Virus record (IMG/VR): IMGVR_UViG_3300002835_000374
Span: 1-43,181 of that record
From: a virus
DNA: 43,181 bases
Strand: one strand, 5' to 3'
Shown: piece by piece, positions 15,415 to 43,181 of the stretch
Layout: each line of letters opens with the position of its first letter
How positions within the stretch are numbered: the first letter of the stretch is position 1
Notes under the pieces: generated by a model
The model's input: the letters and a program-made list of their open reading frames with translations, nothing else
Databases searched by the model: none
What the model was told of the DNA's origin: nothing
Position numbers and translations under genes: made by a program

Positions 15415-15897
15415 TTATTTTTGTGGATATTGTGCTGTAGGAGCAGCAGCAGAGGTATCAAAACCACTTGCTGGAGGATTATCTGGTGCTATATCCTGAC
15501 CTGATACATCTTTAGGAGTTTCCATTTCTTTTGGTTTTTCTGTAATTTGGAAAGCGTTAATAGGAACTCCCATTTTATTAACGACTTTCTGCAAAGTGTC
15601 AATTGTACTTTTTAAGACTTCTTCTATATTATCATTTTCATCTATAGACTTTGCGAGAGAAACAGCACATTTTTGTAATCCTTTAAGAAATTTTCTATTT
15701 TCATTGCCCCAGTGACCTTGAAGAATGCCTCTAGATTTGTTTACAATAATTTGTGCATAACGAACTAAGTTTCTTGTACCAATTTTATTTACTTCGTCCG
15801 AAAGTTCTTGTGAAGAATTAAGGACATCACCAATTTCTTTGGCTAAGTAAACTTTGTTTTCGTTTAAAACGAATTCTCTAAAATTAAAGTCTGTCAT
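15415..15897 (-). CDS. unknown protein with capsid-targeting-like N-terminus
   Basis: The gene encodes 160 aa. The N-terminus MTDFNFREFVLNE fits the tag shared by many small proteins here (aromatic/hydrophobic helix ending in L-x-E). If cut after E13 the product begins NKVYLAKEIG. The middle is helical (20-115). The C-terminal 35 residues are Pro/Ala/Gln-rich and look disordered. An AATAAATA late-type octamer lies 6 bases upstream of the ATG. No enzyme motif. I infer a packaged internal protein. Confidence 0.65.
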   Translation of the reverse strand: MTDFNFREFVLNENKVYLAKEIGDVLNSSQELSDEVNKIGTRNLVRYAQIIVNKSRGILQGHWGNENRKFLKGLQKCAVSLAKSIDENDNIEEVLKSTIDTLQKVVNKMGVPINAFQITEKPKEMETPKDVSGQDIAPDNPPASGFDTSAAAPTAQYPQK

Positions 15898-15902
15898 ATT
15901 TC

Positions 15903-15910
15903 TATTTATT
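15903..15910 (-). promoter_or_regulatory. late-promoter-like octamer AATAAATA
   Basis: On the minus strand this octamer matches T4 late consensus TATAAATA at 7 of 8 bases. It ends 5 bases before the ATG at 15897, so the transcript would be nearly leaderless. Confidence 0.4.
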
Positions 15911-15932
15911 AATAAAGTATCAAATGTTTTTT

Positions 15933-15980
15933 ATTAAAACCTTTTTATTACAGAAATTCATGTAATAAAAAGGTTTTAAT
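15933..15980. terminator. perfect 19-bp AT-rich hairpin, probable terminator
   Basis: Arms 15933-15951 and 15962-15980 are perfectly complementary around a 10-base loop. The stem has internal T/A runs. It lies between the end of the RNR gene (16003, minus) and the next minus-strand gene, so it probably ends RNR transcription. It is low in GC, so it may act in either direction or instead stabilise the mRNA end. Confidence 0.6.
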
Positions 15981-16002
15981 ATTTAGCAATTGACATTTTT
16001 AT

Positions 16003-18450
16003 TTAACCACATTTAGACCAACCACATGATTTACACAGAACACAACCATCATTTCTTTCAACTTGACTTCCCTGACAAGAAGGACATTCTTCACCATGCA
16101 CCTTAGTTCCATCTTTAATATACTTCTTGAGCGTTCTGGCAAGAACCTTACTTAGACTGACAAGATCGCCCTTAGTCTTTTCAAGTTGATGTACAACAAA
16201 ACTAATATCCGCACCATGACGCAGTGAAGTGCTTACCATTCGACACAAAGCATCTCCATTTTCGTGATTGCTGATATTAATTAAGTTAAATGATTCATTG
16301 CCAGCTTGGAAAACATACTTGCCCCTATTTAACTTCTTAAGCAATCCTTTAGATTCTTTACATTTGATCACTGGTTTACCATCTTCTGTATTCAGACCAG
16401 CAAATACTTCATATGGTTCACCACCAAGAAGACCAACAACAACGTAATAAGGTTCACTTTTTACGATTGGCAAATATAATTCTGCTTCAATGTCGGAAGG
16501 ACGTTTTGGAGCATCATTCTTTATAATTTTTTCTTCTACTTCTTTCTTAGCAGGCTTTTCTATCAAAACTCCTGTACGGCAATTTTTACGATAGACTGTC
16601 ATACCCTTGCATTTATATTTCCATGCAGCTTCATAAATCTTGGCAACTTGTTCTTCCGTCACATCTTCTGGCAAGTTAACAGTCTTGGAAATTGCATGAT
16701 CAACATATTTCTGTGCTTCTGCTTGCAATTCTACAGCTGAAACCCAGTCAATATCTTCAGCGCAGCAACCAAACCAAGGAGACTTTTTGAGATCCTTTTC
16801 ACCTGTAACATCCATCCACATTTTGACTTTAGGATGATATACCTCAAATTCTTGCCAATGATCACCATTAGGATCGACGAAGTCTACTCTTGCATTCTTA
16901 TCGTTTGGATTAATTTTCTTTCTTCTAGTATATGGGAAAAGCATGAACAGAGGTTCAATTCCAGATGTTGTCTGTGTCATAATAGACACTGATCCCGTTG
17001 GAGCGATTGTCAGATTGGCAATGTTCCTTCTACCATGCTTTTGCATGTTTTCATAAAGAGTTGCATCCAGATCTCTTAACATCAAAAGGAATTCAGAATC
17101 TTTTTCCTTATTCCAATCCCACACAGGGAATGCGCCTGTTTTCTTAGCCATATCAACACTAGATCTAAATGACGATAAACATAAAGCTTTACAAATTTTA
17201 CCAGTTACGTCAATGCTTTGTCTGCTGCCATAAGCAATACTTAAAGCAGCCATCGCATCGCCTAAAGCAGTTAACCCAGTTCCAGTTCTTCTGCCATTCT
17301 CACACTTTTTATAAATCTCTCCCCATAGTTCAAGCTCATTAGCTTTAATAGTACTGGATTCTGGGTCTTTCTTAATTTTCTTAATAATTTCACTTACTTT
17401 TTCAAGTTCAAGATCAATCATGTCATCCATCAATCTCTGACAAATTATTGCATGCTCTTCAAACAAAGCAAAATCAAAATATGCATTTTTGGTAAAAGGA
17501 TTGACAACATAAGAGAACAAATTGAGAACCATTAAGCGGCAACTGTCAAAAGCGCAAATTGGCAATTCTGCACAAGGGTTTGTTGATATAGTTTTATATC
17601 CATCTTCTGCATAACAATCAACAGCATTGTACTTAGTGATTTGATCCCAGAACAAAAGACCGGGTTCCGCTCTTAGCCATGCATTGTGGATGATCTTTTT
17701 CCACAATTCCTTAGCATCAACATAGATGTCACTATCACTAGGAGGAGCATCTACGGGGAATCGTAAACGGAACTTTTCACCCTTTTCTACAGCTTCCAAG
17801 AATTCATTGCTAAGCAAAACAGAAATATTTGCTCCTGTAACTTTTGAACTGTCGTTCTTAATCGTAATAAATGATTCAATGTCTTTGTGTGCGACATGGA
17901 TACTAAGCATTAGAGCGCCTCTGCGCCCCGCCTGCCCGACTTCTCTGATCGTATTGCTATATCTCTCCATCCATGAACCAATGCCCGTGCTGGTCCTAGC
18001 AGCGTTCTTAACAGGTTCGCCAGCAGGACGTAGAGTTGATATGTCTACGCCAACGCCGCCTCTTCTTTTAGAGATTTGAGCTAAATGTTCATCAACCTTA
18101 AGGATGCCACCATAACTGTCTTTTGGACTTTCGACTACATAACAATTCGATAGAGAAATGATTTGATGATCATTTCCGATACCAAACATGGGACTTCCTT
18201 GAGGTACAATGTATTTGAATTTATCGAATAAAGAAAAAATTTGTTCTTCTGAAAGAGGTTCTGTATACTTTTCTGCTTCAATTCTTGCAAATTCTTTGGC
18301 AAGACGGTGATGCATATCAACTGGTGTTTCTTCGAGTAAATTAGAATTGTTGTCTTTAAGAGCGTATTTGTCCAAAAATACTTTAGCGGCTAGTTCATCT
18401 CCCTCGAAGTAAGATACGCATTTGTCAAAAGCTGTAGTGTACTGATACAT
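16003..18450 (-). CDS. nrdJ: adenosylcobalamin-dependent (class II) ribonucleotide reductase
   Basis: The enzyme reduces ribonucleotides to deoxyribonucleotides using a B12 cofactor, without needing oxygen or a second subunit. It has 815 aa. Visible residues are C103 (LSNCYVVES) and C304 as the redox pair, with NPCAE (291-295) carrying the thiyl Cys C293 and E295; C293 to C304 is the usual 11-residue spacing. Further family blocks are RRGGVGVDISTLRP, APTGSVSIM and ISKTVNLP. The C-terminus ends in a zinc ribbon (CPSC...CVLCKSCGWSKCG) that probably recycles the active site. T4 itself uses class I/III enzymes, so this is a replacement. It has a GAGGGG ribosome binding site and is followed by a hairpin terminator. 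Confidence 0.93.
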   Translation of the reverse strand: MYQYTTAFDKCVSYFEGDELAAKVFLDKYALKDNNSNLLEETPVDMHHRLAKEFARIEAEKYTEPLSEEQIFSLFDKFKYIVPQGSPMFGIGNDHQIISLSNCYVVESPKDSYGGILKVDEHLAQISKRRGGVGVDISTLRPAGEPVKNAARTSTGIGSWMERYSNTIREVGQAGRRGALMLSIHVAHKDIESFITIKNDSSKVTGANISVLLSNEFLEAVEKGEKFRLRFPVDAPPSDSDIYVDAKELWKKIIHNAWLRAEPGLLFWDQITKYNAVDCYAEDGYKTISTNPCAELPICAFDSCRLMVLNLFSYVVNPFTKNAYFDFALFEEHAIICQRLMDDMIDLELEKVSEIIKKIKKDPESSTIKANELELWGEIYKKCENGRRTGTGLTALGDAMAALSIAYGSRQSIDVTGKICKALCLSSFRSSVDMAKKTGAFPVWDWNKEKDSEFLLMLRDLDATLYENMQKHGRRNIANLTIAPTGSVSIMTQTTSGIEPLFMLFPYTRRKKINPNDKNARVDFVDPNGDHWQEFEVYHPKVKMWMDVTGEKDLKKSPWFGCCAEDIDWVSAVELQAEAQKYVDHAISKTVNLPEDVTEEQVAKIYEAAWKYKCKGMTVYRKNCRTGVLIEKPAKKEVEEKIIKNDAPKRPSDIEAELYLPIVKSEPYYVVVGLLGGEPYEVFAGLNTEDGKPVIKCKESKGLLKKLNRGKYVFQAGNESFNLINISNHENGDALCRMVSTSLRHGADISFVVHQLEKTKGDLVSLSKVLARTLKKYIKDGTKVHGEECPSCQGSQVERNDGCVLCKSCGWSKCG

Positions 18451-18568
18451 TATAACCCCTCAATTTAGAAACACCAATAAGATTAATAATACTGATTGTG
18501 AATTACTAAGCAATAAAAATTTCATTAATTTTCAACATGCAATAGCAAATTTTCCGTATTTTTAAAAT

Positions 18569-20572: not shown

Positions 20573-20576
20573 TGAA

Positions 20577-21656
20577 CTACTCCTGAGACTGGTTGATGAT
20601 ATCCAACCCACAACTGATAAGCAAATCCTTGTTTAACTCAGTCATCGTTATCTCAACAAACTTTTTAACCATTTTGTCTGATTGACTTAAAATTTCTTTT
20701 GCAATTTCTATTTGTTTTAATTCGTTGTTTTGATTTTTATCAATAATGTTTTTCTTTATTTTGACTGAACTTACACCTTGACTCTCTAACAACTTTATTT
20801 TTTTATTGATTTCTTCTTTATCTTCATCCTCGACAATTACTGATACAAAAGATTTTTTCAACAATTGCGGATCAATTTTCATTATAGTTTCAAGATCTCC
20901 TTCAAAATGTTGTGGACTAAAATCATTTGCAACGTAGTTGACAATATAATCATTTTCTATAAATTCTAAAATAATTATATTCTTTTTATCTTCTAATTCT
21001 CCGAAAGATAATTGCAATGGACTGCCAATATATTCAGTATTTTCTGATATTGTTTGAGCGTTATGATAATGTCCAAGAAATGCATGTTTGTATTTTGAGA
21101 AAATATTTGGACTAACTTTAGTCATTTCTCCATCATGTTCAATCTCTACATCGGCAGTTGACCCTTTGGAATTTAATTTTGCGCCATCAACTGCTAAATG
21201 TCCTAAGAAAAACGAATCTTGTGGATTCAAAACTGATAATAAATCAATGTCTTCTATTGGATTATGTGTAAAAGGAACAAAATGCCAGCTAATACCTTCT
21301 ATGATGATTTGTTTTGGTTTATCTATAATATAAACATTAGGCAATGCTGATACAGCAGTAACAGAGCTGATAGATGTCTTTTCAAAATACCAAAGATCGT
21401 GATTTCCCAAAAGAACATAGAAATTTATGCTGCCATCAAGATATTTTTTAAGAATAGAAAATGTTTCGTGTAATACAATTGATTCAATTTTTGTGCGATC
21501 ATGAAAAAAATCACCACCAAAAATTATATTTTTTATATTATGCTTCTTAGCTGTTTCAAAAACCCATACCAAACAAAGTAAACAATCATTAAGCCTATCT
21601 TCGCTTTTTTTGTGCGGATGAATATGAATGTCACTAAAAAGCAAAAACTTGATCAT
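20577..21656 (-). CDS. gp47: recombination nuclease subunit gp47 (SbcD/Mre11-like)
   Basis: The protein has 359 aa and is the nuclease partner of gp46. The calcineurin-type metal motifs occur in order: SDIHIHPHK (8-16), GGDFFHDR (47-54), LGNHDLW (near 98), GHLAVDG and the late LGHYHNAQ. The C-terminal third (about 255-359) is helical and charged and would dock on gp46. A gAGGTa ribosome binding site precedes the ATG. It forms a two-gene operon with gp46. Confidence 0.93.
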   Translation of the reverse strand: MIKFLLFSDIHIHPHKKSEDRLNDCLLCLVWVFETAKKHNIKNIIFGGDFFHDRTKIESIVLHETFSILKKYLDGSINFYVLLGNHDLWYFEKTSISSVTAVSALPNVYIIDKPKQIIIEGISWHFVPFTHNPIEDIDLLSVLNPQDSFFLGHLAVDGAKLNSKGSTADVEIEHDGEMTKVSPNIFSKYKHAFLGHYHNAQTISENTEYIGSPLQLSFGELEDKKNIIILEFIENDYIVNYVANDFSPQHFEGDLETIMKIDPQLLKKSFVSVIVEDEDKEEINKKIKLLESQGVSSVKIKKNIIDKNQNNELKQIEIAKEILSQSDKMVKKFVEITMTELNKDLLISCGLDIINQSQE

Positions 21657-21694
21657 TTTTTACCTCGATTTGGCGCAAAATGATAATATCAAGT

Positions 21695-22069
21695 TTATGT
21701 GTAAGGTTCAAGCTTATCTTTTCGCTTAATTTTGCCTTCAAAATATTTTTCGAGAAGATCCCAAGCATTTAGTTTGTTAATGTCTGTAATGACGGCTGTT
21801 GGAGCACCACCTGTTGCTCCAACACCAATTCCACCACCAAGATCTGCACCCAAACTTGAAGGTGGGGGAGGAGTTGCTCCACCTAATGACCCGCCAAGGC
21901 TACCACCTAGACCACCTAAGTCAGATGGTGGTGCTCCTCCGGGTGGTGGTGTTGCTCCTCCTAAAGCTCCTCCCGGTGGTGCCGCACCTCCACTAGAGGA
22001 TGCTCCACCAGCTGGAGCATCTGCTTCAGTTAAAAATTTTTTTCTTCTAAATTGATGAATTGTGATCAT
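21695..22069 (-). CDS. Gly/Pro-rich small protein with capsid-targeting-like N-terminus
   Basis: The gene encodes 124 aa. MITIHQFRRKKFLTE followed by ADAP gives a perfect L-T-E/A prohead-protease-like site at residue 15. Residues 16-88 are low-complexity (GGA, PPGG, LGG repeats). The last 36 residues are a compact charged segment (AVITDINKLNAWDLLEKYFEGKIKRKDK). The opposite strand also has an open frame, but it is a Pro-rich mirror with no tag. It is divergent from the next gene across only 18 bases. The role is unknown; I infer internal capsid cargo. Confidence 0.65.
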   Translation of the reverse strand: MITIHQFRRKKFLTEADAPAGGASSSGGAAPPGGALGGATPPPGGAPPSDLGGLGGSLGGSLGGATPPPPSSLGADLGGGIGVGATGGAPTAVITDINKLNAWDLLEKYFEGKIKRKDKLEPYT

Positions 22070-22087: not shown

Positions 22088-22567
22088 ATGAAAACATTTT
22101 GGGAATATTTAAATAATGATCAACCGGATGCTCTACGAATAACTGAGCGTCCTGTTCCACAACCGCAAGCAGTTGCGCCAGTTGCAATTAATGCGAATGC
22201 AGACCCTGTAAATCACACTGTAGCTGTTCCGCAGCCAGCAGAAACCGGATTCAGATCAAAAGTAAAACCTTGGAAAGCGAAGAAAAGTCAAATTATGACT
22301 TTTTGGAAAGCTTTAGCTCCTAATATACCTTTACAATTGCAGCCTATTGAGCAAATTCATAAAGGTAGTACTTTACAACAAGATACATTTAGGCTCACAG
22401 GAAGCAAAGAATTTATTACAACTGTACTGTCTAGATTGAAAGATTTTGTGATTTATGAAAATCCAGAAACAAAATTAGTTTTAGATTATAGACAAAATGC
22501 TAAAAGCCTAAAACCGGGAGAAAAAAATAGTTATTTATTTTACTTAAATGTCCGCAAGAGGAAATAA
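22088..22567 (+). CDS. unknown protein with capsid-targeting-like N-terminus
   Basis: The protein has 159 aa from ATG 22088, chosen over 22052 because it gives the tag MKTFWEYL and avoids overlap with the divergent gene. A candidate cut follows ITE at residue 20, leaving a Pro/Gln/Ala-rich segment (21-55) and a basic folded domain (about 58-159, ending VRKRK). The basic domain could bind DNA; no family recognised. Its 3' end overlaps the convergent small gene by 24 bases. Confidence 0.65.
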   Translation: MKTFWEYLNNDQPDALRITERPVPQPQAVAPVAINANADPVNHTVAVPQPAETGFRSKVKPWKAKKSQIMTFWKALAPNIPLQLQPIEQIHKGSTLQQDTFRLTGSKEFITTVLSRLKDFVIYENPETKLVLDYRQNAKSLKPGEKNSYLFYLNVRKRK

Positions 22568-22823: not shown

Positions 22824-24242
22824 ATGGCGACTACAATTACAATTAACAATGATTTCTGTCAATTGCAAACTGATAATCAAGAAATGTTAAAATACATTAT
22901 TCTTAATTTAAAATTTAGACAAAAAGGTTATCAATTCACACCTCTTTATAAATCTAAGAAGTGGGATGGATTTGTTAACTTTTTTTCAGCAAAAACAGGA
23001 AAATTTCTTACCGGAATATTACCAGAAATTTGTATGATTGTAAAAAAGTTCAATGAATCATATGATCTTAGTGATTTAAGAATACCAATTAAATTTAAAT
23101 TCGATAAAATTGATGAACATTTTTTACAATATTACAACGAAGATATGAACACTAAAATCGAATTAACAGATTATCAAGTTGACCTAGTAAACCAAGCGAT
23201 CAAACACAAACGTGGAATTATTGTTGCTCCTACCGCTTCTGGGAAAACATTCCTTATGTCTGCTCTCTTAAAGGCTTTAGGAGAACATGAACCGACTTTA
23301 GTTTTGCAAAACAGAAAGTCTTTAGCTTCTCAGAATTTTGATGAAATTTCTAGATGGGGATTTAAAAATATTGGTTCTTGTTGGGGTGGAAACAATAATC
23401 CAAATAAAATAACTGTTGCTACTGCGCAATCAATTCATCATTTGGAAGACAAGCTTGATAGCATAAGAGTTCTTATTGTAGATGAAGTTCATGATATGGT
23501 ATCTGATACAGCTAAAGAAATATACAAAAAGATGAAAAATACAGTCATAAGGATAGGTTTGTCGGCAACACCGTTTAAGCATGGTGAAACAGACAAGGTA
23601 CACAAATATCTTGTCAAAGGATTCTTCGGTCCAATAATCAAGACGACTACAACTTCCACAGGAAGAGTAACGACAGCAGACTTACAACAAAAAGGCAGAT
23701 TATCTCAGTCAAAATGCTTGTTTTACAAAATATGTGAACCTGATCTTTCCTTATCAATCTATAGTGAAGCTATAGATCTTGGTATTGTCAACAATTTAAC
23801 TTTACATAATAAAGTTGTTGAATTGACAAATGCGTTTTCTGGCAGAACATTAATTTTAGTAGACAGAATTGCGCATGGTGATCAATTGAAAAAAATGATC
23901 CCAACCGCTTATTGGATCACAGGAAAAGACGATAATGATTCTAGAAAAGAAGTAATTAATATGTTACAAAGTTCTAAAACTAGTTGTATAGCAATTGCTA
24001 CTCAACAAATATTCAACACTGGTATCAATGTTAAAATTCACAATTTAATTAATGCTGCTGGTGGGCAAGCTGATCATTTAATTATTCAAAGAATGGGTCG
24101 TGGATTAAGAACAGCTGATGACAAAAAAGAAGTTACTTACATTGATTTTATGTTTGAAAACAATCCTTACTTGAAAAAGCATTCTGCAAAAAGAGTTAGA
24201 ATTTTGGAGAAGGAAGGTCACTCTCTTCAGTTTTTCGATTGA
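22824..24242 (+). CDS. uvsW: UvsW-like superfamily 2 helicase
   Basis: In T4, UvsW unwinds branched DNA and R-loops and shifts replication from origin to recombination mode. This protein has 472 aa (T4: 587). The N-terminal ~110 residues match the UvsW substrate domain in style (FRQKGYQFTPLYKSKKWDGF). Helicase motifs are PTASGKT (136-142), DEVHD (220-224), LSATP (246-250) and the late QRMGRGLR. A consensus host promoter and GAGG site precede it, so it is probably expressed early. The last 47 bases overlap an antisense gene. Confidence 0.9.
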   Translation: MATTITINNDFCQLQTDNQEMLKYIILNLKFRQKGYQFTPLYKSKKWDGFVNFFSAKTGKFLTGILPEICMIVKKFNESYDLSDLRIPIKFKFDKIDEHFLQYYNEDMNTKIELTDYQVDLVNQAIKHKRGIIVAPTASGKTFLMSALLKALGEHEPTLVLQNRKSLASQNFDEISRWGFKNIGSCWGGNNNPNKITVATAQSIHHLEDKLDSIRVLIVDEVHDMVSDTAKEIYKKMKNTVIRIGLSATPFKHGETDKVHKYLVKGFFGPIIKTTTTSTGRVTTADLQQKGRLSQSKCLFYKICEPDLSLSIYSEAIDLGIVNNLTLHNKVVELTNAFSGRTLILVDRIAHGDQLKKMIPTAYWITGKDDNDSRKEVINMLQSSKTSCIAIATQQIFNTGINVKIHNLINAAGGQADHLIIQRMGRGLRTADDKKEVTYIDFMFENNPYLKKHSAKRVRILEKEGHSLQFFD

Positions 24243-24513
24243 CAACATTGTAAAAAGCATTAAATAAATCATTTAACGTAGATGATGGTTTACCAATAAT
24301 ACTTTTTATCATTGCCTTGTCTTCCTTGCTCATTTGATCATATTTACTCCAACTTTTCAATCGAGTCTTTATCTTTTCAATATCAAGCTTGGATAGGTTG
24401 ATAGTAAATCCTTGATCATTATCAATATTTAATTGTAATTGATTTTTAAAAGCATTTTTTTTAACTTCTTTTTCATTTTCTGTAGCTTCTAAAAATTGTA
24501 TGAAAGTAATCAT
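24196..24513 (-). CDS. small protein with capsid-targeting-like N-terminus
   Basis: The gene encodes 105 aa. MITFIQFLE followed by ATE fits the shared tag, with F-L-E/A as candidate cut. The rest is helical and charged. The middle (about 38-80) is LSKLDIEKIKTRLKSWSKYDQMSKEDKAMIKSIIG. No enzyme motif. The 3' end runs 47 bases into the uvsW-like gene on the other strand. Confidence 0.6.
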   Translation of the reverse strand: MITFIQFLEATENEKEVKKNAFKNQLQLNIDNDQGFTINLSKLDIEKIKTRLKSWSKYDQMSKEDKAMIKSIIGKPSSTLNDLFNAFYNVVNRKTEESDLPSPKF

Positions 24514-24542: not shown

Positions 24543-25352
24543 ATGAAGTTTACTGAATGGGTTGGTAAATCACCTGATGTTGTTTTCGGTTTTGACAAAG
24601 TTGTTTCTACTAAAGGTCAGCTTCGTTATAACGAAGAACCAGTAGAACCTTTAAAAATCGAAACTGTTTTAGATGAAATAATCAATTTAGGTAAAATAGG
24701 AATAAAAGAACCTGTTAAAGATTTTGGATCTATGATTAATTATGGAGACAGTAATCAAGTCGGGTCAATTCGTCTTAAATTTAGTCCTCTTGGTTCTTGT
24801 CGTGTAACGATAATGAGAAGAATTAGTGATTTGGAAGGTGAATTAACTTGGGTTACTCGTTATTCTATTCCTGTTGTTAATGATTACGAACATATGACTG
24901 TAGAAGACATTGCTGTTGAAAAAATGTTAGCTACTAGGATTTTTGAATTGGCTGAATATATTGATAAAACGGCTTTGGAAACGCCCAAACAAAAATATGA
25001 TTCGCTTGAAGAATTAGTAATTATGCTTGCTATGAATATGAAATTAAAGCATCCAAAAGTAATGAGTTACCAAGGTGTGATAAAAGAAAACATTAATACA
25101 TATATCATATATTTTTCGTATCATGGTTTAGGTCTTGAAGCTCCCGGTCAAAGAAAAGTGAATCAATTTAATATTTATGTAGAATTTATCAAACACAAAG
25201 GGTTAATTCGATGTTGGGGTGCCGAATATTCTGCTCCTCACTTGCTCTATAATTATGAACCTCAGACCCCTGAATGGGACGAATATTTTAGCGTAGATCA
25301 GAATAAAAATGAGATTACAACAATTATTGAAAATATATTTAAAACTTATTGA
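24543..25352 (+). CDS. unknown protein
   Basis: The gene encodes 269 aa with a GGAG site 8 bases before the ATG. It begins MKFTEWVGKSPD, reminiscent of the shared tag but without a convincing L/I/F-x-E site. The body is mixed alpha/beta with a helical centre (about 115-180) and a beta-rich end. No catalytic motif recognised. It converges on the next gene with a 7-base overlap. Confidence 0.7.
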   Translation: MKFTEWVGKSPDVVFGFDKVVSTKGQLRYNEEPVEPLKIETVLDEIINLGKIGIKEPVKDFGSMINYGDSNQVGSIRLKFSPLGSCRVTIMRRISDLEGELTWVTRYSIPVVNDYEHMTVEDIAVEKMLATRIFELAEYIDKTALETPKQKYDSLEELVIMLAMNMKLKHPKVMSYQGVIKENINTYIIYFSYHGLGLEAPGQRKVNQFNIYVEFIKHKGLIRCWGAEYSAPHLLYNYEPQTPEWDEYFSVDQNKNEITTIIENIFKTY

Positions 25353-36299: not shown

Positions 36300-36560
36300 G
36301 TGAAAAAAGTTTTTACGTTTTTTGTTAAAATGAATGATCACGATTTGACATACATCTATACGAGACTGCTACATCGTTATCAAGATGATTTGTCACAGGT
36401 TTTTGATTTGATCTCTAAAAAGTTTACAGAAATTAATGAGTATTTTATCAACACAGAATGTTCGTCAACTTTTCATTCAAACTTAGAAGATTTTACTGGT
36501 TTAGTATTTAATGAGGTCAAACGCAGGAAAATTACAGACCCAGTTCTAAACCCGCTCTAA
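36300..36560 (+). CDS. unknown small helical protein
   Basis: The protein has 86 aa from GTG 36300, chosen because GAGG sits 8 bases upstream. A TTG at 36252 overlapping the previous stop would add 16 residues but has no such site. It is all-helical with acidic patches (MNDHDLTYIYTRLLHRYQDDLSQVFDLISKKF). No family recognised. It is followed by a strong terminator, closing the uvsX operon. Confidence 0.55.
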   Translation: MKKVFTFFVKMNDHDLTYIYTRLLHRYQDDLSQVFDLISKKFTEINEYFINTECSSTFHSNLEDFTGLVFNEVKRRKITDPVLNPL

Positions 36561-36585
36561 GGGGGTGATTTCAGGGTTTGGAACC

Positions 36586-36617
36586 GTAGCCCTCCTTAAT
36601 TGGAGGGCTACTTTTTT
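36586..36617 (+). terminator. rho-independent terminator ending uvsX operon
   Basis: A GC-rich perfect 10-bp stem (36586-36595 with 36602-36611) around TTAATT is followed by TTTTTT. Confidence 0.9.
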
Positions 36618-36620
36618 AAT

Positions 36621-36648
36621 TTGACATAAATTATTGAACACATATAAT
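36621..36648 (+). promoter_or_regulatory. perfect sigma-70 promoter, probably leaderless
   Basis: TTGACA (36621-36626), 16 bases, TATAAT (36643-36648): both hexamers are perfect. The helicase ATG (36656) starts 8 bases after the -10, so the mRNA should start at or next to the ATG. Confidence 0.8.
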
Positions 36649-36655
36649 AATAAAC

Positions 36656-38440
36656 ATGCTACCTATTCATATTAAAGAAACGCCTGAAAAAGATTCATCT
36701 TCATTTCACTATTATCAATATCCTTTTGACAAATTCAATGTTGTTCAAAGTTCAATATTAGAACATTATCAAGATGATAAGAATTTTATAATAGCTTCTG
36801 CCACTAATAGCGGAAAAACTATTATGGCAGAATTTTTCCTTTTTGACGTTCTTGTTGGAAAAAACAAAAAAGCAATTTATCTTTGTCCTCTTAAATCCCT
36901 CGCATCAGAAAAATACAGCGAATGGTCTAACGAATTACATCCCTTTAACAAAAGTAAAATACGTCTTATGTCTGGAGACGAAGAGAAAACAACGATTGGT
37001 AATCTTATAATCGCAACAATTGAAAGTTTTTGCCATAAGGTTAGAACTGAATCAGATTGTTTCCCTGATGTCGAATTAATTATTGTTGATGAAGCTCATA
37101 TGCTTGGAATGGATGATAGAGGGGCTACACTTGAATTTTCTTTATCAGCATTCGCAAGGAAAAATAATGCAAAAATTGTATTTTTGAGCGGGACATTGCC
37201 TAATGTTGATCAAATTGCAGATTGGATAACAATTTTAAATAAAAAACAAACAATTATCCTTGATTCAAAATACAGAGCAGTTCCTCTTAACATCCATTAT
37301 AGAAGATATGACACTTCTATGAATCAAGGAGGAAATCCTCTTGATATGTTTGATTCTATTTTTAAAATTTGTGAAAAATACATGTCTGACAAAATACTCG
37401 TGTTTGTGCATTCAAAGAATCTAGGCAAACGATTTATCAAATATATTGGAGAGAAAGGTTTAGAAGCTAAGTTCCATTCAGCAGACCTCGCAGCAGGCAA
37501 AAGAAAGGCGCTAGAGCAAGAATTCAAAGAAGGTTCATTAAGAGTGCTTGTTGCAACAAGTACTCTTGCTGCGGGTGTAAACCTGCCTGCTAGAAGGGTA
37601 ATCATTGCTGGTGTAGTAAGAGGCAATCAACTTGTTGATAAATCTGAAATATTTCAGATGGTTGGTCGCAGTGGCAGAAAAGGAATTGATCAACAAGGTG
37701 ATGCTTATATATTTTTTCCTAACAACAAAATTACTTTGATTGACCAATACAAGAAAGTTGATAATGTTGTTTCAAAATTATTTGTGTTAAATAATGATTT
37801 AGAATATCACAAACTTGCTAGTCATCTTCTTGCTTTGATTTATTTAGAGAAAAAATTAACTTTTGATAAAATATGGAACATTTTAGATAACACTTATGGT
37901 GCTTGTTCAGATAAAATGAAATCAAATTATTTGAAAAACACTTTAGATTGCCTTGTGAAAATGAAATTTGTCGAGGTTGTTGAAGGAATTTACAAGATAA
38001 GAAAGCTAGGCATTCCAAGCGTTTTGTTTTTTATTGATCCTTATGATCTTAATGTTTGGGTAAAGAATTTTTCTCGTTATTTTGGAAGCTCTTTGAGAAA
38101 AGATTCTCTTGTGACTTATTATCTTTCGCTTATACCATCAAATGCCAAATCATTTATTACTGAAGATGAAAAAATGTTTTGTAGGCAATACACAGATAGA
38201 ATTCAGGAATTAATTGGCAATAGTTTTATTGAGTCAAGCGCAATTAAGATTGGTTACCTTTATTACTGCATGCTTAACAAAAGATCAACTGGATTGTTAT
38301 CTCCATTAATTCCAGCTATTGCAAAAGATTTTGGAAGAATTTGTGCCTGTTTGAATATGGTATCAAAAATTTGTCAATGGAAATGCGAACCTAACTTCTT
38401 TGTTGGTTTAAAACAAAGGTTTCATTCTAAAAAAGTTTAA
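36656..38440 (+). CDS. Ski2/Hel308-like superfamily 2 helicase
   Basis: The gene encodes 594 aa. Motifs in order: Q-like region at about 26-31, ATNSGKT (49-55), CPLKSLASEKY, DEAH (145-148), FLSGTLPN (177-183), LVFVHSKN, VLVATSTLAAGVNLPAR and QMVGRSGRKG. This order and wording match Ski2/Hel308-type helicases, which act on forks and recombination intermediates, rather than T4 Dda. The C-terminal 200 residues contain a winged-helix-like part. It is a single-gene unit with its own consensus promoter, probably early. Confidence 0.85.
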   Translation: MLPIHIKETPEKDSSSFHYYQYPFDKFNVVQSSILEHYQDDKNFIIASATNSGKTIMAEFFLFDVLVGKNKKAIYLCPLKSLASEKYSEWSNELHPFNKSKIRLMSGDEEKTTIGNLIIATIESFCHKVRTESDCFPDVELIIVDEAHMLGMDDRGATLEFSLSAFARKNNAKIVFLSGTLPNVDQIADWITILNKKQTIILDSKYRAVPLNIHYRRYDTSMNQGGNPLDMFDSIFKICEKYMSDKILVFVHSKNLGKRFIKYIGEKGLEAKFHSADLAAGKRKALEQEFKEGSLRVLVATSTLAAGVNLPARRVIIAGVVRGNQLVDKSEIFQMVGRSGRKGIDQQGDAYIFFPNNKITLIDQYKKVDNVVSKLFVLNNDLEYHKLASHLLALIYLEKKLTFDKIWNILDNTYGACSDKMKSNYLKNTLDCLVKMKFVEVVEGIYKIRKLGIPSVLFFIDPYDLNVWVKNFSRYFGSSLRKDSLVTYYLSLIPSNAKSFITEDEKMFCRQYTDRIQELIGNSFIESSAIKIGYLYYCMLNKRSTGLLSPLIPAIAKDFGRICACLNMVSKICQWKCEPNFFVGLKQRFHSKKV

Positions 38441-38476
38441 ACTTTCTCCTTTAGATAAACCTTTAAAGGGAAGTAT

Positions 38477-39106
38477 ATGACTACTGGAACAATGATTACT
38501 CCTAAATGCACAAAACCAAAATTGGTGAAATATACTTTCAAAGATTTGGAAAGGATTGCTTTTAAAGTTGATATCGTTGGCGAAGAATACGATATGTGTG
38601 TAGACTTTTCAAAGAACATGTGGGCTAATAAGAAAAAAGGGGAATGGGGCAGAGGGATGATGAATACTGATGCAGATCCTTATAAAACGGAACGCACAGG
38701 AATAATTGGAGAAATGGGATATGCTAAATTAGAAAATATTCCTGTTGATATGATGTATCGAGAAGGTGGTGATGATTACGATTTTATTCGTAATGATAAA
38801 AAAATTAATATTAAGACTAGTCATAAAGAACCTTGGTATCAGTCAGGATTGGTTAAAGCTGGTTATTACAGAACTAAAGATGGTCAAACCGAATTTATTC
38901 CACTTGAAATCAAACATGATTATTTTATTTTTGGATTTCTAACATTAGACGACATTAAGAATAGAATGGCATCTGTCATTTTTGTTGGTGGTTGCGATAA
39001 AGAAACTTTGATAAACAGAGAATTGAAGAAAGCAATAAAAGGATCACATATGAATTATCAGATTCATTTTAATGACTTGACAGAAATGCGTGATATTAAG
39101 CTTTAA
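38477..39106 (+). CDS. unknown, possibly PD-(D/E)XK nuclease-like
   Basis: The gene encodes 209 aa with a GGGA site. Residues about 75-118 carry a nuclease-like order: GEMGYAKL (E), GGDDYDFI (D) and then INIKTSH, where a K follows at ExK spacing but the acidic residue is replaced by Asn. This is suggestive only. It converges with the next gene with an 11-base overlap. Confidence 0.6.
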   Translation: MTTGTMITPKCTKPKLVKYTFKDLERIAFKVDIVGEEYDMCVDFSKNMWANKKKGEWGRGMMNTDADPYKTERTGIIGEMGYAKLENIPVDMMYREGGDDYDFIRNDKKINIKTSHKEPWYQSGLVKAGYYRTKDGQTEFIPLEIKHDYFIFGFLTLDDIKNRMASVIFVGGCDKETLINRELKKAIKGSHMNYQIHFNDLTEMRDIKL

Positions 39107-39341
39107 CAGAATTGTCTCCAAAAAAGTTTGCTGGATATTCCATTTTTATTATTTTTTCTCCTTTTATCTCTTCTTCCCAAAAGCGGACTTGATCCACAGA
39201 TACTCCTAATTCTATATAATGACATTTATCATTGGGATTGACAGGCATGTTAACATTTTTACCTTCGTGAATTATGTTCACCTTGCAAACACTTTCTTTT
39301 TTATCGAAGCAAAAACAGTTCTTGCATTTTTTCTTGCTCAT
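39096..39341 (-). CDS. small Cys-rich zinc-binding-like protein
   Basis: The gene encodes 81 aa. Cys residues at 6, 9, 11, 19 and 40 (CKNCFCFDKKESVC ... NPNDKC) fit a small zinc knuckle seen in several phage proteins of unknown role. It is divergent from the dNMP kinase gene across only 14 bases. Confidence 0.6.
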   Translation of the reverse strand: MSKKKCKNCFCFDKKESVCKVNIIHEGKNVNMPVNPNDKCHYIELGVSVDQVRFWEEEIKGEKIIKMEYPANFFGDNSVKA

Positions 39342-39355
39342 ACTATAATAGAGTC
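39342..39355. promoter_or_regulatory. 14-base divergent spacer with TATAAT
   Basis: TATAAT at 39344-39349 ends 6 bases before the plus ATG. A weak -35 (TTGCAT, 39322-39327) lies 16 bases upstream. A plus transcript would be leaderless. Confidence 0.45.
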
Positions 39356-39988
39356 ATGAAAAACATCATTGTTGGTTTATTTGGACAGGCAGCATCTGGC
39401 AAAGACACAGTTGCAGCAATGCTTGCTCCTCGCTTGTGGGAATATGTTAATTACGACAAGCCTCTTGTTACAAAAATTGCTTTTGCATATAATGTGAAAA
39501 AAATATTTTGTGATTATTTTGATGTTGATTTTGATTTTATTGAAGAATGGAAAAGAAATCCCGAACCACCACCCGGTTTTACAATGAATGTCAGACAAGC
39601 TTTACAAATGATTGGTGATGGATTTAGAAAAGTTAAAAACTCTGTATGGATCGACAAAGTTTTGAATAAAATGCAAAACGTGATTATCACAGATGGTCGT
39701 TATCTTAACGAAGCTAAAGCAATTAAAGAAAAAGATGGTATTGTTGTTCTTATTGATCGTCCCAGCCATCGCAATACTGATCAAAATGATAGCGAAAAGA
39801 TTATGGGAGAAGTGTCAGATTATTTTGGAAATAAAGACGCAAATGGAATTATCGCTGATAGCAATTATCCTATGTTTGATTATTACATAAAAAATGATAG
39901 CAGTCTTTTGTCTTTAGAGGACAAGATAGTACATCAATTGATTCCATTTGTAATTGAAAAATTTAAATTAAAAGATTATAAAAACTAA
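39356..39988 (+). CDS. gp1: deoxynucleoside monophosphate kinase, gp1-like
   Basis: The enzyme phosphorylates dNMPs for DNA synthesis. It has 210 aa (T4 gp1: 241). The P-loop is GQAASGKDT (10-18). The family block VRQALQMIGDGFRK...VWIDKVL corresponds to the RxLLQxxGTE...W region of phage dNMP kinases, and VIITDGRYLNEA is the NMP-binding/Walker-B-like part. The plus start appears leaderless from the 14-base spacer. It complements the RNR and dCMP deaminase in nucleotide supply. Confidence 0.82.
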   Translation: MKNIIVGLFGQAASGKDTVAAMLAPRLWEYVNYDKPLVTKIAFAYNVKKIFCDYFDVDFDFIEEWKRNPEPPPGFTMNVRQALQMIGDGFRKVKNSVWIDKVLNKMQNVIITDGRYLNEAKAIKEKDGIVVLIDRPSHRNTDQNDSEKIMGEVSDYFGNKDANGIIADSNYPMFDYYIKNDSSLLSLEDKIVHQLIPFVIEKFKLKDYKN

Positions 39989-39991
39989 TAT

Positions 39992-40429
39992 TTACAATCT
40001 ATATCTGTTGTTCAACGCATTTTTAACAGCATCTTTTTGTTCGATTACTGTTAAGTATTTTTTTGTGTGTCTATCTAAATCTTCTCTTTTTAGTAATTCT
40101 GTTGCTTTTTGTGGCGTTATGTAGCTTGATATGTGCCCATCAGCTTGTAGGCTTGCTATTTTATAAATGTTGTATACATTTTTTCTGAACAAATTGTCCA
40201 ATCCGCCCGACAATTCTATTTTTTTCTTTAAAACTAAATCTAATTTATTTTTATCCGCAGAGAATTTGTTTGCTAATTCTTCTATTGAAAATCTTTGTAT
40301 ATCTCGATCTTGAATATCAACATTAGCATTGTTGCCTGATTGATTATAACCTCTCTGCGGATTAGGAGGTTGAACACCATATGTTTGCTCAGAAAACCTT
40401 TTAGATAACCAATTGCGGAATGTTTTCAT
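39992..40429 (-). CDS. small protein with capsid-targeting-like N-terminus
   Basis: The gene encodes 145 aa. MKTFRNWLSKRFSE followed by Q fits the shared tag (F-S-E cut). A Pro/Asn/Gln-rich linker (16-38) precedes a helical domain (45-145). Its promoter/ribosome binding region (CATAAATA, AGGTGAT) is a perfect 34-base copy of that of the upstream metallopeptidase gene. I infer packaged cargo of unknown activity. Confidence 0.65.
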   Translation of the reverse strand: MKTFRNWLSKRFSEQTYGVQPPNPQRGYNQSGNNANVDIQDRDIQRFSIEELANKFSADKNKLDLVLKKKIELSGGLDNLFRKNVYNIYKIASLQADGHISSYITPQKATELLKREDLDRHTKKYLTVIEQKDAVKNALNNRYRL

Positions 40430-40462
40430 TTTATCACCTATTGTATTTATGATTCATTTTAA
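40429..40462 (-). repeat. 34-base promoter/RBS repeat, copy 1
   Basis: Identical to 41419-41452, 990 bases away. On the minus strand it carries CATAAATA (40444-40451) and AGGTGAT just before the start codon, and it also includes the stop of the upstream gene. The octamer matches T4 late TATAAATA at 7 of 8. Confidence 0.75.
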
Positions 40463-41418
40463 GTTTTTTGAAATGCAGATTGATTGTTTTGTGGGTTGTT
40501 TTTTACAACTTGATCATAAGCACCAATCAGTTCTTTATAATAGTCTTCCTTCTCTGCTCCATTCAAAGTGTTGTAAAAACTTAATATTTCACTAACATCA
40601 CCATTGCTTTTGCTTAAATTAGTTATAATCTCATATAAAACAGATCTTAAAATCAAATTAATTAGCTTGTGATTATCTGGATTGTTTGTTTCTGAATTGA
40701 TTATCTTTAAAGATCGACGTTCCCATTCCTGTGGATGCAAAATAAAATAAAATATTAGTTTTTCATCTTCTGGTAAAGTTTCAACAATTTTATTTGCATA
40801 ATATTTGTTTTTGGTAGATAAATTGGCTATTTCATATAATGCGTCTTTGCTCATGTAATTTTTTATTGCAGCTAATCTTACTCCCATTTCTCTGGGATCT
40901 TTATGGTATTTTTTTTCACGTTTTTTTCCCGATAAACTAGAGTCTTGTTGTCTTACCTTTGGTACAAATCCTTGTTGTGTTGAGTGTCGTAATTCGTGAG
41001 CTAATACTTCTGCTCCTTCTGGTGTTAACTTTCCATCTGATGAAGCAGTAGGAAGTTCAGTAAACATGGTATTTGGTAAAACGACAGTGTGCTGGAGCGA
41101 CATATAATATGCTTCAGCACTGGGTCGTACTCTTTTTAATGCTTCTTTTTTCACAACAAGCATTCTTACTGGTTCGTCAAAATAATATTTTATTGTTGCA
41201 AATCCTGAATTTTGGTTTTCACTAGGGTCTTGTAATCTATTAAAATCTTTATCCCATTTATTGGTATCAAATTGCGCATTTCTTATCAGTTGTTTTGGTA
41301 TTACATTTTTTTGAATTATTATTTCATCAGGTCTATATCCCAGATTATCTTGTTCATTTTGTTGTTCTGTAAAATATCGTGGATGCTTTATTTTTAACCA
41401 TTCAACAAAATTTTCCAT
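40459..41418 (-). CDS. zincin-type metallopeptidase-like protein with capsid-targeting-like N-terminus
   Basis: The protein has 319 aa from ATG 41418; a GTG at 41427 lies inside the ribosome binding site. The tag MENFVEWLKIKHPRYFTE is followed by Q (F-T-E cut). The catalytic motif is HELRH (141-145) in EVLAHELRHSTQQG. A downstream EMGVRLAAIKNYM (about 178-190) is a candidate for the third zinc ligand. The C-terminal 130 residues are helical. Sequence alone cannot prove protease activity. If packaged, it might act inside the host after injection. Confidence 0.7.
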   Translation of the reverse strand: MENFVEWLKIKHPRYFTEQQNEQDNLGYRPDEIIIQKNVIPKQLIRNAQFDTNKWDKDFNRLQDPSENQNSGFATIKYYFDEPVRMLVVKKEALKRVRPSAEAYYMSLQHTVVLPNTMFTELPTASSDGKLTPEGAEVLAHELRHSTQQGFVPKVRQQDSSLSGKKREKKYHKDPREMGVRLAAIKNYMSKDALYEIANLSTKNKYYANKIVETLPEDEKLIFYFILHPQEWERRSLKIINSETNNPDNHKLINLILRSVLYEIITNLSKSNGDVSEILSFYNTLNGAEKEDYYKELIGAYDQVVKNNPQNNQSAFQKT

Positions 41419-41452
41419 TTTTATCACCTATTGTATTTATGATTCATTTTAA
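41419..41452 (-). repeat. 34-base promoter/RBS repeat, copy 2
   Basis: Perfect copy of 40429-40462, with CATAAATA at 41434-41441 and AGGTGAT before the metallopeptidase start. It also contains the stop of the upstream nuclease gene. Confidence 0.75.
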
Positions 41453-42064
41453 AGTTTTCAAAGCATTTTCGGTCATTACAATGAATTCCCAGTTTCTTTT
41501 TTTGCAGTAAATATTTGCTGCTTTCCATTTAGCAATGTTTTTGTCCCATTTTACTTGTGACTTTGGCTTTATTTCCCATAATTCTATTTTGCCATCAGTA
41601 TATTCAATCAGTATATCTGGAATATAATTGTGGTTACCACCATTGAAAAAATATTCTATTTGTAAGCTTTCTGCTTTATATTTTTTTACTTTTGGATTTT
41701 TTTCTAAATGTTTAATAAACTTTAATTCTAAGCCACTTCTAAAAAAAATATTACATTTATTTTTCTCAGAATAAAAATTACCTTGTTTAAATTTAGTTGT
41801 TAGTTTATTGGATATACCTTTTTTTTTTATATCACGGATGATTAATGCCCTTGTTTGTGATCCTTGCGGTATTGTCTCTCCGATATGTCTTGATCGGTAA
41901 TGTGTGATCAAATCCCTTGTGGGACTAGTACAAATAGGACAAATAACATAATCGTCTCCTTCTTTGTGATCTGTTGTAATGTGAGACCTGAGTAAATCAA
42001 GTTCATCAAAACTTTTATCACAAGCAAAGCAACAATAATTTCTACCTGTATTTTTTTTGTTCAT
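41444..42064 (-). CDS. zinc-finger plus gp4/TnsA-like PD-(D/E)XK nuclease
   Basis: The gene encodes 206 aa. The N-terminus has two C2H2-like fingers (C12, C15, H28, H33; C42, C45, H55, H60). The C-terminal domain has the nuclease residues E113 (FRSGLELKF), P149-D150 and E164-x-K166 (LWEIKPK), and ends KWKAANIYCKKRNWEFIVMTENAL. This is very like T4 gp4, the head-completion protein, and TnsA nucleases. The fingers are not part of T4 gp4, so it may be a paralogue with targeted DNA cutting, such as a free-standing homing-type enzyme. It is divergent from the next gene across 18 bases. Confidence 0.72.
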   Translation of the reverse strand: MNKKNTGRNYCCFACDKSFDELDLLRSHITTDHKEGDDYVICPICTSPTRDLITHYRSRHIGETIPQGSQTRALIIRDIKKKGISNKLTTKFKQGNFYSEKNKCNIFFRSGLELKFIKHLEKNPKVKKYKAESLQIEYFFNGGNHNYIPDILIEYTDGKIELWEIKPKSQVKWDKNIAKWKAANIYCKKRNWEFIVMTENALKTLK

Positions 42065-42082
42065 GTATTAGTATATATTTGT
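42065..42082. promoter_or_regulatory. 18-base divergent spacer with TATATA
   Basis: GTATTAGTATATATTTGT is the entire spacer between the nuclease start (minus) and a GTG start (plus). There is no Shine-Dalgarno sequence on either side. It has the same length as the spacer at 22070-22087. Confidence 0.4.
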
Positions 42083-42448
42083 GTGAAAACATTTATCCAA
42101 TATATCAATGAAGAAAGAAAAAATTCAGACTTTATGACAAGTTTGAAACTTTTCAATATTGATCCAAAAAATTTAGACAATGCTATAGAAAAAACACCTT
42201 CTGTTTTTGCTCAAGCACTTTATGGAGATAAGCAAATCGGTGCTTCTGCTTTTGATGTTAAGAAAATCGGTAAAAATTATGCAATGAAAAATCGAAGCGT
42301 TTTTGGTGATTTAACTTATACAGATCATGTACCAAGTAAATTAAACATAAAAACTGTCGTAACACCAACTTTTGTAGATTATTTAAAGACTCAAGGTCTT
42401 GTTGGTGCAGAAAAATATAATGATTTTTTGAAGGGTAAAGCAAAATGA
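42083..42448 (+). CDS. small protein with capsid-targeting-like N-terminus
   Basis: The protein has 121 aa from GTG 42083. MKTFIQYINE is almost the T4 internal-protein signal (IPIII, from memory: MKTYQEFIAE), with an I-N-E cut after residue 10. The rest (11-121) is a compact alpha/beta domain with no recognised motif (KLFNIDPKNLDNAIEKTP, VVTPTFVDYLKTQG). Its end overlaps the next start by 4 bases (ATGA). Confidence 0.65.
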   Translation: MKTFIQYINEERKNSDFMTSLKLFNIDPKNLDNAIEKTPSVFAQALYGDKQIGASAFDVKKIGKNYAMKNRSVFGDLTYTDHVPSKLNIKTVVTPTFVDYLKTQGLVGAEKYNDFLKGKAK

Positions 42449-42654
42449 AAGGCTTCAAATATTGGTTGAAAATAGATGAAGTTTCCACTAGCACAGGGGA
42501 TGTAGCTAATTTTGCTTTGCCAATTGGTGCTGGGATGATAGGTAGAAAATTTCCACAATTTTTTAATGTGGGACAATATGGATTAGGCGGACCAATTCAA
42601 CAATTAACTAGCACAGATTACGTCAATCCAAAAAGGAAACATAGAAAATCATGA
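42445..42654 (+). CDS. very small protein with capsid-targeting-like N-terminus
   Basis: The gene encodes 69 aa. MKGFKYWLKIDE followed by V fits the tag with an I-D-E cut. The remaining 57 residues are Gly/Pro-rich with a hydrophobic centre and a very basic end (NPKRKHRKS). It is translationally coupled to the previous gene. The basic tail could bind packaged DNA; this is inference. Confidence 0.6.
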   Translation: MKGFKYWLKIDEVSTSTGDVANFALPIGAGMIGRKFPQFFNVGQYGLGGPIQQLTSTDYVNPKRKHRKS

Positions 42655-42684
42655 ATTAAAACCAATTTTACAGCATTTTCAGTA

Positions 42685-42692
42685 AATAAATA
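42685..42692 (+). promoter_or_regulatory. late-promoter-like octamer AATAAATA
   Basis: It matches TATAAATA at 7 of 8, 24 bases before the Gln-repeat gene, which also has an AGGAG site at 42705. Confidence 0.4.
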
Positions 42693-42716
42693 TTGTATTT
42701 GTACAGGAGATTAGTC

Positions 42717-43181
42717 ATGAGAACTTTTGCAGAATATGTTGAAAAAAGAGATGAAGAGAACGCCCTTAATGAAGTTTTTCCATTACTTGCACCCGCTGCC
42801 ATGGCAGCGGCACCTTATGCAGGTGCTGCTTTAGGAGCAGCGGGTTCATATCTTGGTGGTCAGGCTATTGGCAGTGCTCTTGATGCAACAGGCGCAACTG
42901 ATGCTGCTAGATACGTTGGTAATAAAGTAGGACAAGGTGCCAATTATTTAGGAAAAGGTGTCTATAATATGGGAAAAGGTCTTTATAACGCTGCATTCGG
43001 CTCTAGCCAACCACAACAACAAGGACAACAACAAGGACAACAACAAGGACAACAACAAGGACAACAACAAGGACAACAACAAGGACAACAACAAGGACGA
43101 CAACGACGACAAGGACGACAACAAGGACGACAACAAGGACAACAACAAGGACAACAACAAGGACAACAACAAGGACAACAA
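42717..43181 (+). CDS. Gln-repeat protein with capsid-targeting-like N-terminus, 3' end outside window
   Basis: The frame starts at ATG 42717 and stays open to the window edge, so the C-terminus is unknown. The tag MRTFAEYV continues to ALNE (residue 19) followed by V, a candidate cut. Residues about 22-60 are Ala/Gly-rich with small-residue spacing (AAMAAAPYAGAALGAAGSYLGGQ), like a glycine-zipper or membrane-inserting helix pair. A short Gly/Tyr segment follows, and then G-Q-Q-Q repeats with a few Gln-to-Arg changes. A packaged, membrane-active or condensate-like protein is possible, but unproven. Confidence 0.65.
   Translation, partial: MRTFAEYVEKRDEENALNEVFPLLAPAAMAAAPYAGAALGAAGSYLGGQAIGSALDATGATDAARYVGNKVGQGANYLGKGVYNMGKGLYNAAFGSSQPQQQGQQQGQQQGQQQGQQQGQQQGQQQGRQRRQGRQQGRQQGQQQGQQQGQQQGQQ
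43014..43181 (+). repeat. 12-base tandem repeat encoding G-Q-Q-Q
   Basis: About 13 imperfect copies of CAACAACAAGGA run to the window edge. CGA variants (Arg) and one irregular 18-base unit lie near 43098-43139. It remains in frame throughout. Confidence 0.85.

Follow-up and report, generated by a model that had tools for sequence, protein, structure and literature searches.

The closest described counterpart of the system examined here is the N-terminal tag of the internal proteins of phage T4. In the relevant passages of a review (PMC9026906), targeting by the IPIII tag is assigned to residues 4 and 7, following the work of Mullaney and Black, and processing to residues 8 and 10; gp21 is stated to cleave after L/I-x-E, and it is already suggested that the tag may enable T4-like phages to incorporate a variety of proteins. 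In the T4 record, IPII and IPIII begin MKTYQEFIAE/A, and IPI begins MKTFKEF...STITE/A, with ITE at residues 17-19 (a slash marks a described or candidate cut throughout, the T4 positions being those given in the same review). An earlier note, made from sequence alone, had given the IPIII start correctly and had likened to it the starts of nine proteins encoded in a 43,181-base stretch of viral DNA with 32% G+C. This stretch, which is the entire linear IMG/VR virus record IMGVR_UViG_3300002835_000374, is referred to below as the window. The analysis presented here makes it very probable that the shared start is a capsid-targeting sequence of the T4 type on a much larger and changing set of cargo proteins, which would be packaged, cut by the prohead protease, and probably injected.

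All nine proteins, designated here by the first base of their genes, carry the tag at the extreme N-terminus, and the start codons and N-termini were confirmed for each of them. The form described in the earlier note, M-x-x-F-x-x-[WYF]-[LIV] or close to it, is matched exactly in seven of the nine, whose two aromatic residues fall at positions 4 and 7, the targeting positions of IPIII. In the 15897 protein (MTDFNFREFVLNE/NKVYLAKE; 15415-15897, minus strand; 160 residues), the core of the tag lies two residues later, as F6, F9 and V10, and in the Gly/Pro-rich 22069 protein (MITIHQFRRKKFLTE/ADAP; 21695-22069, minus strand; 124 residues; conserved in relatives), I4 and F7 occupy the two positions. 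Both fall below the threshold of the tag model described below and are not called by it; their status as tagged proteins rests on conservation in relatives. The 15897 protein, a putative core cargo protein, has homologues in the genomes LR756511, G021 and G024 and in close relatives, and F6 and E13 are invariant in nine of nine sequences aligned, which are 34-86% identical to the window protein. Its AlphaFold model is a helical bundle (mean pLDDT 74.5) with no PDB or viral match at E ≤ 0.001.

A second putative core cargo protein, of 159 residues, is encoded at 22088-22567 (plus strand) and starts MKTFWEYL...LRITE/RP, with its candidate site at residue 20; the tag is retained in six relatives at 39-69% identity, and the AlphaFold model is poor (mean pLDDT 45.0). 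Three minus-strand genes encode proteins of 105 residues (24196-24513; MITFIQFLEATENE), 145 residues (39992-40429; MKTFRNWLSKRFSE/Q) and 319 residues (40459-41418; MENFVEWLKIKHPRYFTE/Q). The last of these is zincin-like, with an HELRH motif and a sub-threshold match to PF13699, eCIS_core (E 0.016; 15.8 of the 22 bits required), and no sequence match to it was found in the PDB. The remaining three lie on the plus strand. The 121-residue protein at 42083-42448 (VKTFIQYINE/E) starts with GTG, and both GTG and tag are kept in two relatives, G001 and G014; it is followed by a 69-residue protein at 42445-42654 (MKGFKYWLKIDE/V) and by a Gln-repeat protein at 42717-43181 (MRTFAEYVEKRDEENALNE/V), which runs past the end of the window and reaches 256 residues on a longer contig. 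A 12-nt repeat at 43010-43181 encodes Gln/Gly runs in this last protein; over 38000-43181, two near-identical contigs exceed the window by 12 bases, a difference that looks like one repeat unit. In the divergent pairs 22069/22088 and 42064-42083, the start codons lie about 18 nt apart with an AT-rich TATATATT-like stretch between them, and some of their mRNAs may therefore be nearly leaderless.

An [LIF]-x-E triplet occurs within residues 8-26 in eight of the nine proteins, and the ninth, 24513, has FLE at residues 7-9; [LI]-x-E alone is found within residues 8-26 in six of nine. The candidate sites in the window phage lie 9 to 22 residues from the start. The site of 22069, FLTE/A, has the same letters as FLTE/A in T4 gp23. 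The description of the set as including small basic proteins holds for some members only, as the nine range in net charge from -2 to +10 and the tagged proteins -156 and -9286, outside the nine, are strongly acidic.

Coordinates are relative to the window, and negative numbers and those above 43,181 denote positions on a longer contig, G003 (91,057 bases), which is the same phage at 99.96% identity and adds 29.5 kb on the left and 18.4 kb on the right. Relatives found through the zincin and sheath genes show roughly 65-89% DNA identity, and up to 94% in one stretch. The sheath proteins of three further genomes, G020, G021 and G024, are 53-55% identical to that of the window. The 595-kb genome of an uncultured phage, LR756511.1, contains many homologues of the window-phage genes in shared order; the window sheath has no detectable match in it, so its kinship rests on these other genes. 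G003, LR756511, G020, G021 and G024 are referred to as the five clade genomes.

The strict motif opens 10 of the 115 genes of G003, as against 17 of 21339 internal positions and none of 402 internal methionines. One of the ten, at -4661 (MEIFLIFLWDKK), is doubtful, since it has a second start just downstream and is not called by the retrained model. When residues 2-9 of the G003 proteins were shuffled, the motif appeared 0.80 times on average and 4 times at most in 400 trials, and all five clade genomes lie above every one of 400 shuffles. The counts in T4 (2), KVP40 (3), phiKZ (1) and phage G (2) are within the shuffle range. A short motif in an AT-rich genome could in principle reflect chance or biased composition; however, gene starts far exceed both internal positions and shuffled N-termini, counts that rule this explanation out, and orthologues keep the tag, often together with the x-E site. 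Its probability is therefore practically nil.

A position-specific model of the tag, trained on seven window tags and applied at a background rate of 5e-4 per start, was used on genomes outside its training. It called 22 of 1108 genes in LR756511 (1.8 expected), 12 of 439 in G020 (1.0), 9 of 801 in G021 (1.6) and 6 of 339 in G024 (0.7). The model was retrained once on LR756511, G020, G021, G024 and G003, with T4 left out, and then gave 34, 18, 14, 9 and 11 hits, respectively, the last among 115 genes, where 0.2 to 1.8 were expected in each; these counts are no longer independent. Similarly, the aromatic residues at positions 4 and 7 in 0.98 and 0.97 of the 86 hits, doubtful ones included, arise by construction of the model, and aromatic conservation in the position count across relatives is partly by construction, the sequences having been picked for a tag-like start.

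The eleven hits in G003 are the seven training tags together with -6310, 43519, 50928 and -3764. Six others, 15897, 22069, -6089, -156, -20281 and -9286, were added by eye and by conservation in relatives, and none is a model hit. The expectation that genes outside the window would carry the same tag is thus borne out on G003. The -156 gene encodes a Gly/Met-rich protein of 264 residues (MKTFFEMYDIMKMKRNKIMQE/QG), the 3' part of which occupies positions 6-638 (plus strand) of the window; it was recognised by eye, below the model threshold, and in its family the tag and x-E-Q site persist across relatives with a linker of varying length. A weaker case, also made by eye, is a possible tagged protein at 24543-25352 (plus strand), which starts MKFTEWVGKS and has no clear x-E site; its homologues start MKSFASWFNE, MGNNMQFREWF and MKSLAFREWF.

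The link to a known function comes from T4, where the retrained model makes four calls among 272 open reading frames (ORFs; 0.39 expected), each at the first start of its ORF. According to the annotation, these are ipI, ipII, ipIII and the uncharacterised gene 61.1. The seven-tag model by itself calls only 61.1 and ipI; third place is shared by ipII, ipIII, the start of nrdC.3 and a start inside gene 20. Phage G (260 kb) gave no hit among 358 ORFs (0.59 expected), and the model separates the clade and T4 well. The best T4 hit, 61.1 (NC_000866 18966-19130, minus strand; 54 residues), reads MKTFKEFIKE/DMVAG and is annotated as hypothetical. The adjoining gene, 61.2, is named as the anti-DarT gene adfA in a passage of PMC9391042.

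The bodies behind the tag are mostly unrelated. BLAST searches with the nine window proteins after residue 20 detected no mutual similarity at E 0.01, in agreement with the claim that they have no common body. Clustering by body placed the 84 tagged proteins of the five genomes that have a body in 72 groups; these counts, like the 86 hits, still include doubtful ones. The model hits are 54 to 724 residues long, a doubtful one of 1039 residues being left out. It might be supposed that the tag is just the best-preserved part of a single ancient family, which arose by duplication and in which the bodies have diverged past recognition, as there are a few true paralogues (-6310 and -6089) and as the 40 nt running up to the 40429 start codon are 95% identical to the 40 nt before 41418. 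This explanation is highly improbable given the clearly different domains among the bodies and the range of their lengths, and the body clustering speaks against a single diverged paralogous family.

Searches of PHROGs and Pfam gave no above-threshold match for any of the nine window proteins. For the relatives, domains were sought in 69 tagged proteins, that is, the 75 retrained hits in LR756511, G020, G021 and G024 less one lying across two tiles and six doubtful ones, with one NADAR protein added. This set contains two C39-type peptidases, the NADAR protein, one ParB N-terminal domain, one phosphodiesterase-like domain and several helix-turn-helix matches. It matched 23 PHROGs families, including ParB-like, endolysin, HNH and DNA-binding ones, and nine PADLOC families, three of them below 1e-4. 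The NADAR protein (LR756511.1 521964-522461, minus strand; L096:1964-2461) starts MLTWTEFLEA and lies about 1 kb from the capsid gene; it was added by eye and is not called by the model. Near its gene, an ORF at 516905-520135 of LR756511.1 also has a tag-like start, MEFREWFRSAETRTINE.

These bodies bear on a further possibility, namely that the tag docks proteins to the prohead core and that many of its bearers are not injected effectors but structural or core components, which remain in the head or undergo degradation. T4 core proteins are likewise cleaved by gp21, according to part of a review (PMC9026906), 15897 and 22088 have homologues across the clade, and some tagged proteins have the acidic or low-complexity character that core proteins may show. 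Yet the bodies are mostly unrelated, and core proteins would have no need of enzyme domains such as C39 peptidase and NADAR. We therefore consider it unlikely, though by no means negligible, that a core role accounts for many members of the set, and continue to favour a packaged cargo.

A wider search of IMG/VR DNA for the pattern MKTFx[EQ]W[LF] gave at least 128 matches; among the matches listed, 103 open ORFs of at least 40 residues, 64 of which have [LIVFM]xE in residues 8-26. For domain scans, 85 of 101 complete ORFs were kept after removal of near-duplicates and of most copies of an MKTFFEWFPPG family, and these showed isochorismatase, tyrosine phosphatase, RNA ligase and HicA domains and a sub-threshold S-adenosylmethionine lyase. 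The proteins are leads only, the head type of their contigs not being tied to T4. Long proteins starting MKTFEEWL or MKTFAEWL occur among the pattern matches at the viral contig loci L287, L320, L352 and L353; given the capsid-family matches counted across the scan, which are not assigned to single proteins, these may represent the same short start in another setting.

If the tag directs proteins into a prohead, a protease site would be expected close behind it. In the five genomes, 52 of 86 tagged proteins have [LIVFM]xE in residues 8-26, as against 693 of 2563 (27%) other genes, and 37 of 86 have [LI]-x-E there, as against 17%. No excess of [LIVFM]xE is seen in residues 27-45 of the tagged proteins. 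Given a glutamate at residues 10-26, only offset -2 of the seven tested is enriched for L, I, V, F or M (62 of 146 vs 809 of 2540; p 0.0057), and enrichment two residues before the glutamate is the gp21 rule. Across the clade, then, the x-E site is an excess and not a rule.

The protease and the capsid protein, which the earlier note had suggested seeking for a comparison of their sites, were found in relatives. LR756511 encodes an S77 prohead protease (PF03420, E 6.7e-28), a gp23 capsid protein (2.5e-86) and a gp20 portal (2.6e-73). The portal gene (531014-533587, minus strand) has an apparent intein-like insert (PF14890, 3.7e-8, below its cut-off), and a second, weaker S77 match lies far from the head genes at 242621-242989 (minus strand; 3.5e-9, over the cut-off). 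Relatives of the LR756511 capsid protein occur in at least 370 stretches of IMG/VR, out of which 80 loci were kept for counting. In 79 of these 80, the capsid protein has L-[MFIYV]-N-E before a conserved T-D, and 79 of the 80 capsid ORFs with a KRISIPL motif have FLNE/A or LLNE/A near the start. A homologue of the LR756511 protease is present at 76 of the 80 loci, with [LIVFM]-x-E near the start in 74 of the 76, mostly as LNE, the form that is also read in the 15897 and 42717 tags. The N-E sites in the capsid and protease proteins of the clade are putative cutting sites, and they resemble those behind the tag.

Several observations weigh against this reading. Neither gene of the comparison was found for the window phage itself: no gp23 or S77 match was obtained in 16 fragments, including the 91-kb contig, although the searches were also silent in control genomes, so that absence is unproven. 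Of the tagged proteins, 34 of 86 lack [LIVFM]xE in residues 8-26, and the x-E excess is in part simply a higher glutamate content behind the start. In the AlphaFold model of 15415-15897, the predicted cut falls within a continuous helix spanning residues 6-35, and relatives in the 22088 family have lost or replaced the linker that contains ITE, so that the site is not kept. The packaged T4 protein Alt, which starts MELITELFDE without an aromatic pair, is missed by the model. The 85 pattern ORFs include five Phage_capsid_4 and four Mu-like gpT matches, which perhaps overlap, and MKTFxxW alone is therefore not exclusive to cargo. The retrained model also gave 3 hits among 398 genes in KVP40 (0.71 expected, p 0.036) and 3 among 372 in phiKZ (0.60 expected, p 0.024), two of the latter lying well within long ORFs (by 104 and 145 residues) and the other at a TTG. 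An S77 protease is matched in KVP40 as in T4, and the same search gave no match in phiKZ or phage G; as KVP40 illustrates, an S77 protease is not in itself accompanied by a distinct tag set.

A T4-type head does not account for the nominal excess of hits in phiKZ, and a destination cannot be read from sequence alone, which leaves some room for an address to another site, such as the membrane, the tail or a replication compartment. That destination is very unlikely, as the same model recovers three T4 internal proteins, the prohead-protease motif follows the tag just as it occurs in the capsid and protease proteins of the clade, and the strict motif in phiKZ and phage G is within shuffle range. 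The capsid-targeting interpretation is thus retained, and the idea of a packaged cargo set larger than that of T4 is supported by the excess of the tag, the recovery of the T4 internal proteins, and the protease and capsid sites in relatives.

In the mechanism that we propose, a short N-terminal peptide with two aromatics three residues apart, mostly at positions 4 and 7, would bind the assembling prohead core, and any protein bearing it would co-assemble into the prohead. The S77 prohead protease would cut after a nearby [L/I/F/V/M]-x-E and release the cargo in the head. The cargo would exit with the DNA and probably act early on host functions or defences. Each of these steps, like the function of each cargo protein, is predicted from patterns in the sequences.

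Upstream sequences of the tagged genes were compared with those of the remaining genes, using three promoter patterns. Of the 16 tagged genes, 5 have ATAAATA in the 60 nt upstream, as do 3 of the 99 other genes (p 0.0012). For the stricter [AT]ATAAAT[AT], the counts are 3 of 16 and 3 of 99 (p 0.035), and the third pattern gave p 0.0009. In the window, the box occurs at 15903-15909 (minus strand), 12 nt before the start codon of 15897, at 40444-40450 (minus strand), upstream of 40429, and at 41434-41440 (minus strand) and 42686-42692 (plus strand). It is a candidate late-promoter element, resembling the late box of T4, which is TATAAATA.

The remaining gene content of the window is T4-like and includes a tail sheath, identified by tblastn against annotated phage sheaths, and a UvsX/RecA-like recombinase; further ORFs we take, from their sequences, to encode a tail tube, gp46/47, UvsW and a gp41-like helicase. 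Beyond the window, three adjacent genes at 52681-57558 (plus strand) of G003 resemble a PrkA-like/DUF444/SpoVR set (DUF444 8.5e-63; SpoVR 1.4e-100), the first of which belongs to an unnamed PHROG family and is presumed PrkA-like by its position; a SpoVR homologue in LR756511 is 53% identical to that of G003. An actin-like protein with a strong Volactin match (PF25216, 1.7e-67) is encoded at -16726 to -15704 (plus strand) and is 57% identical in LR756511.

To our knowledge, the proteins injected by huge phages are largely uncharacterised, and the majority of their small genes lack an assigned function. A tag of established mechanism yields a predicted list of head proteins with new N-termini for a clade with capsid-protein relatives in at least 370 IMG/VR stretches, and this list points to candidate early-acting anti-defence proteins. 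The tags of the clade are also ready-made labels for loading proteins into heads, and 61.1 offers a testable prediction within T4, the best-studied phage. On balance we lean, with some reserve, towards a broader picture in which one portable address would load tens of unrelated effectors (proteases, ADP-ribose-related NADAR, DNA-binding proteins) in T4-headed huge phages, the injected arsenal would be large, quickly exchanged and readable from the genome, and 61.1 would be an overlooked T4 member. In the literature searched, which covered few subscription journals, there was no earlier description of the tag in huge phages and no earlier account of 61.1 as a T4 internal protein, and the phrase 'capsid targeting' is absent from two huge-phage papers (PMC7162821 and PMC12619734). 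The mechanism is of a known kind. Two points appear to be new: within a widespread clade of huge phages, it would serve tens of unrelated proteins per genome, and T4 has a candidate tagged protein in 61.1.

Other phages also load proteins into their heads by N-terminal signals. In phage P1, an N-terminal signal on the anti-restriction protein DarB suffices to package a reporter into heads, as described in part of PMC9024508; here, by contrast, one motif is common to many proteins. The giant phages phiKZ and SPN3US similarly load many head proteins, several of which are cut after glutamate by a prohead protease, yet several of their propeptides exceed 100 residues in the passages of PMC5694885 concerned, whereas the sites of the window phage lie within the first 22; phiKZ itself shows three model hits (0.60 expected) and no excess of the strict motif. 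A survey of jumbo phages records DNA-co-injected proteins together with an S77 prohead peptidase in its groups 1 and 2, and the passages concerned make no reference to small proteins with a common N-terminal tag (PMC7824862). The closest likeness remains that to IPI, IPII and IPIII of T4, which share the MKT[FY]xEF form with aromatics at positions 4 and 7, and in which [LI]-x-E ends at residue 10 (FIAE/A, IPII and IPIII) or 19 (ITE/A, IPI). Unlike in T4, position 7 of the clade tags is often W, and the site is looser (L/I/F/V/M). Finally, while T4 has three such internal proteins and 61.1, the tag is found here on 11 genes in 91 kb and on 34 in the 595-kb relative, in front of mostly unrelated bodies.

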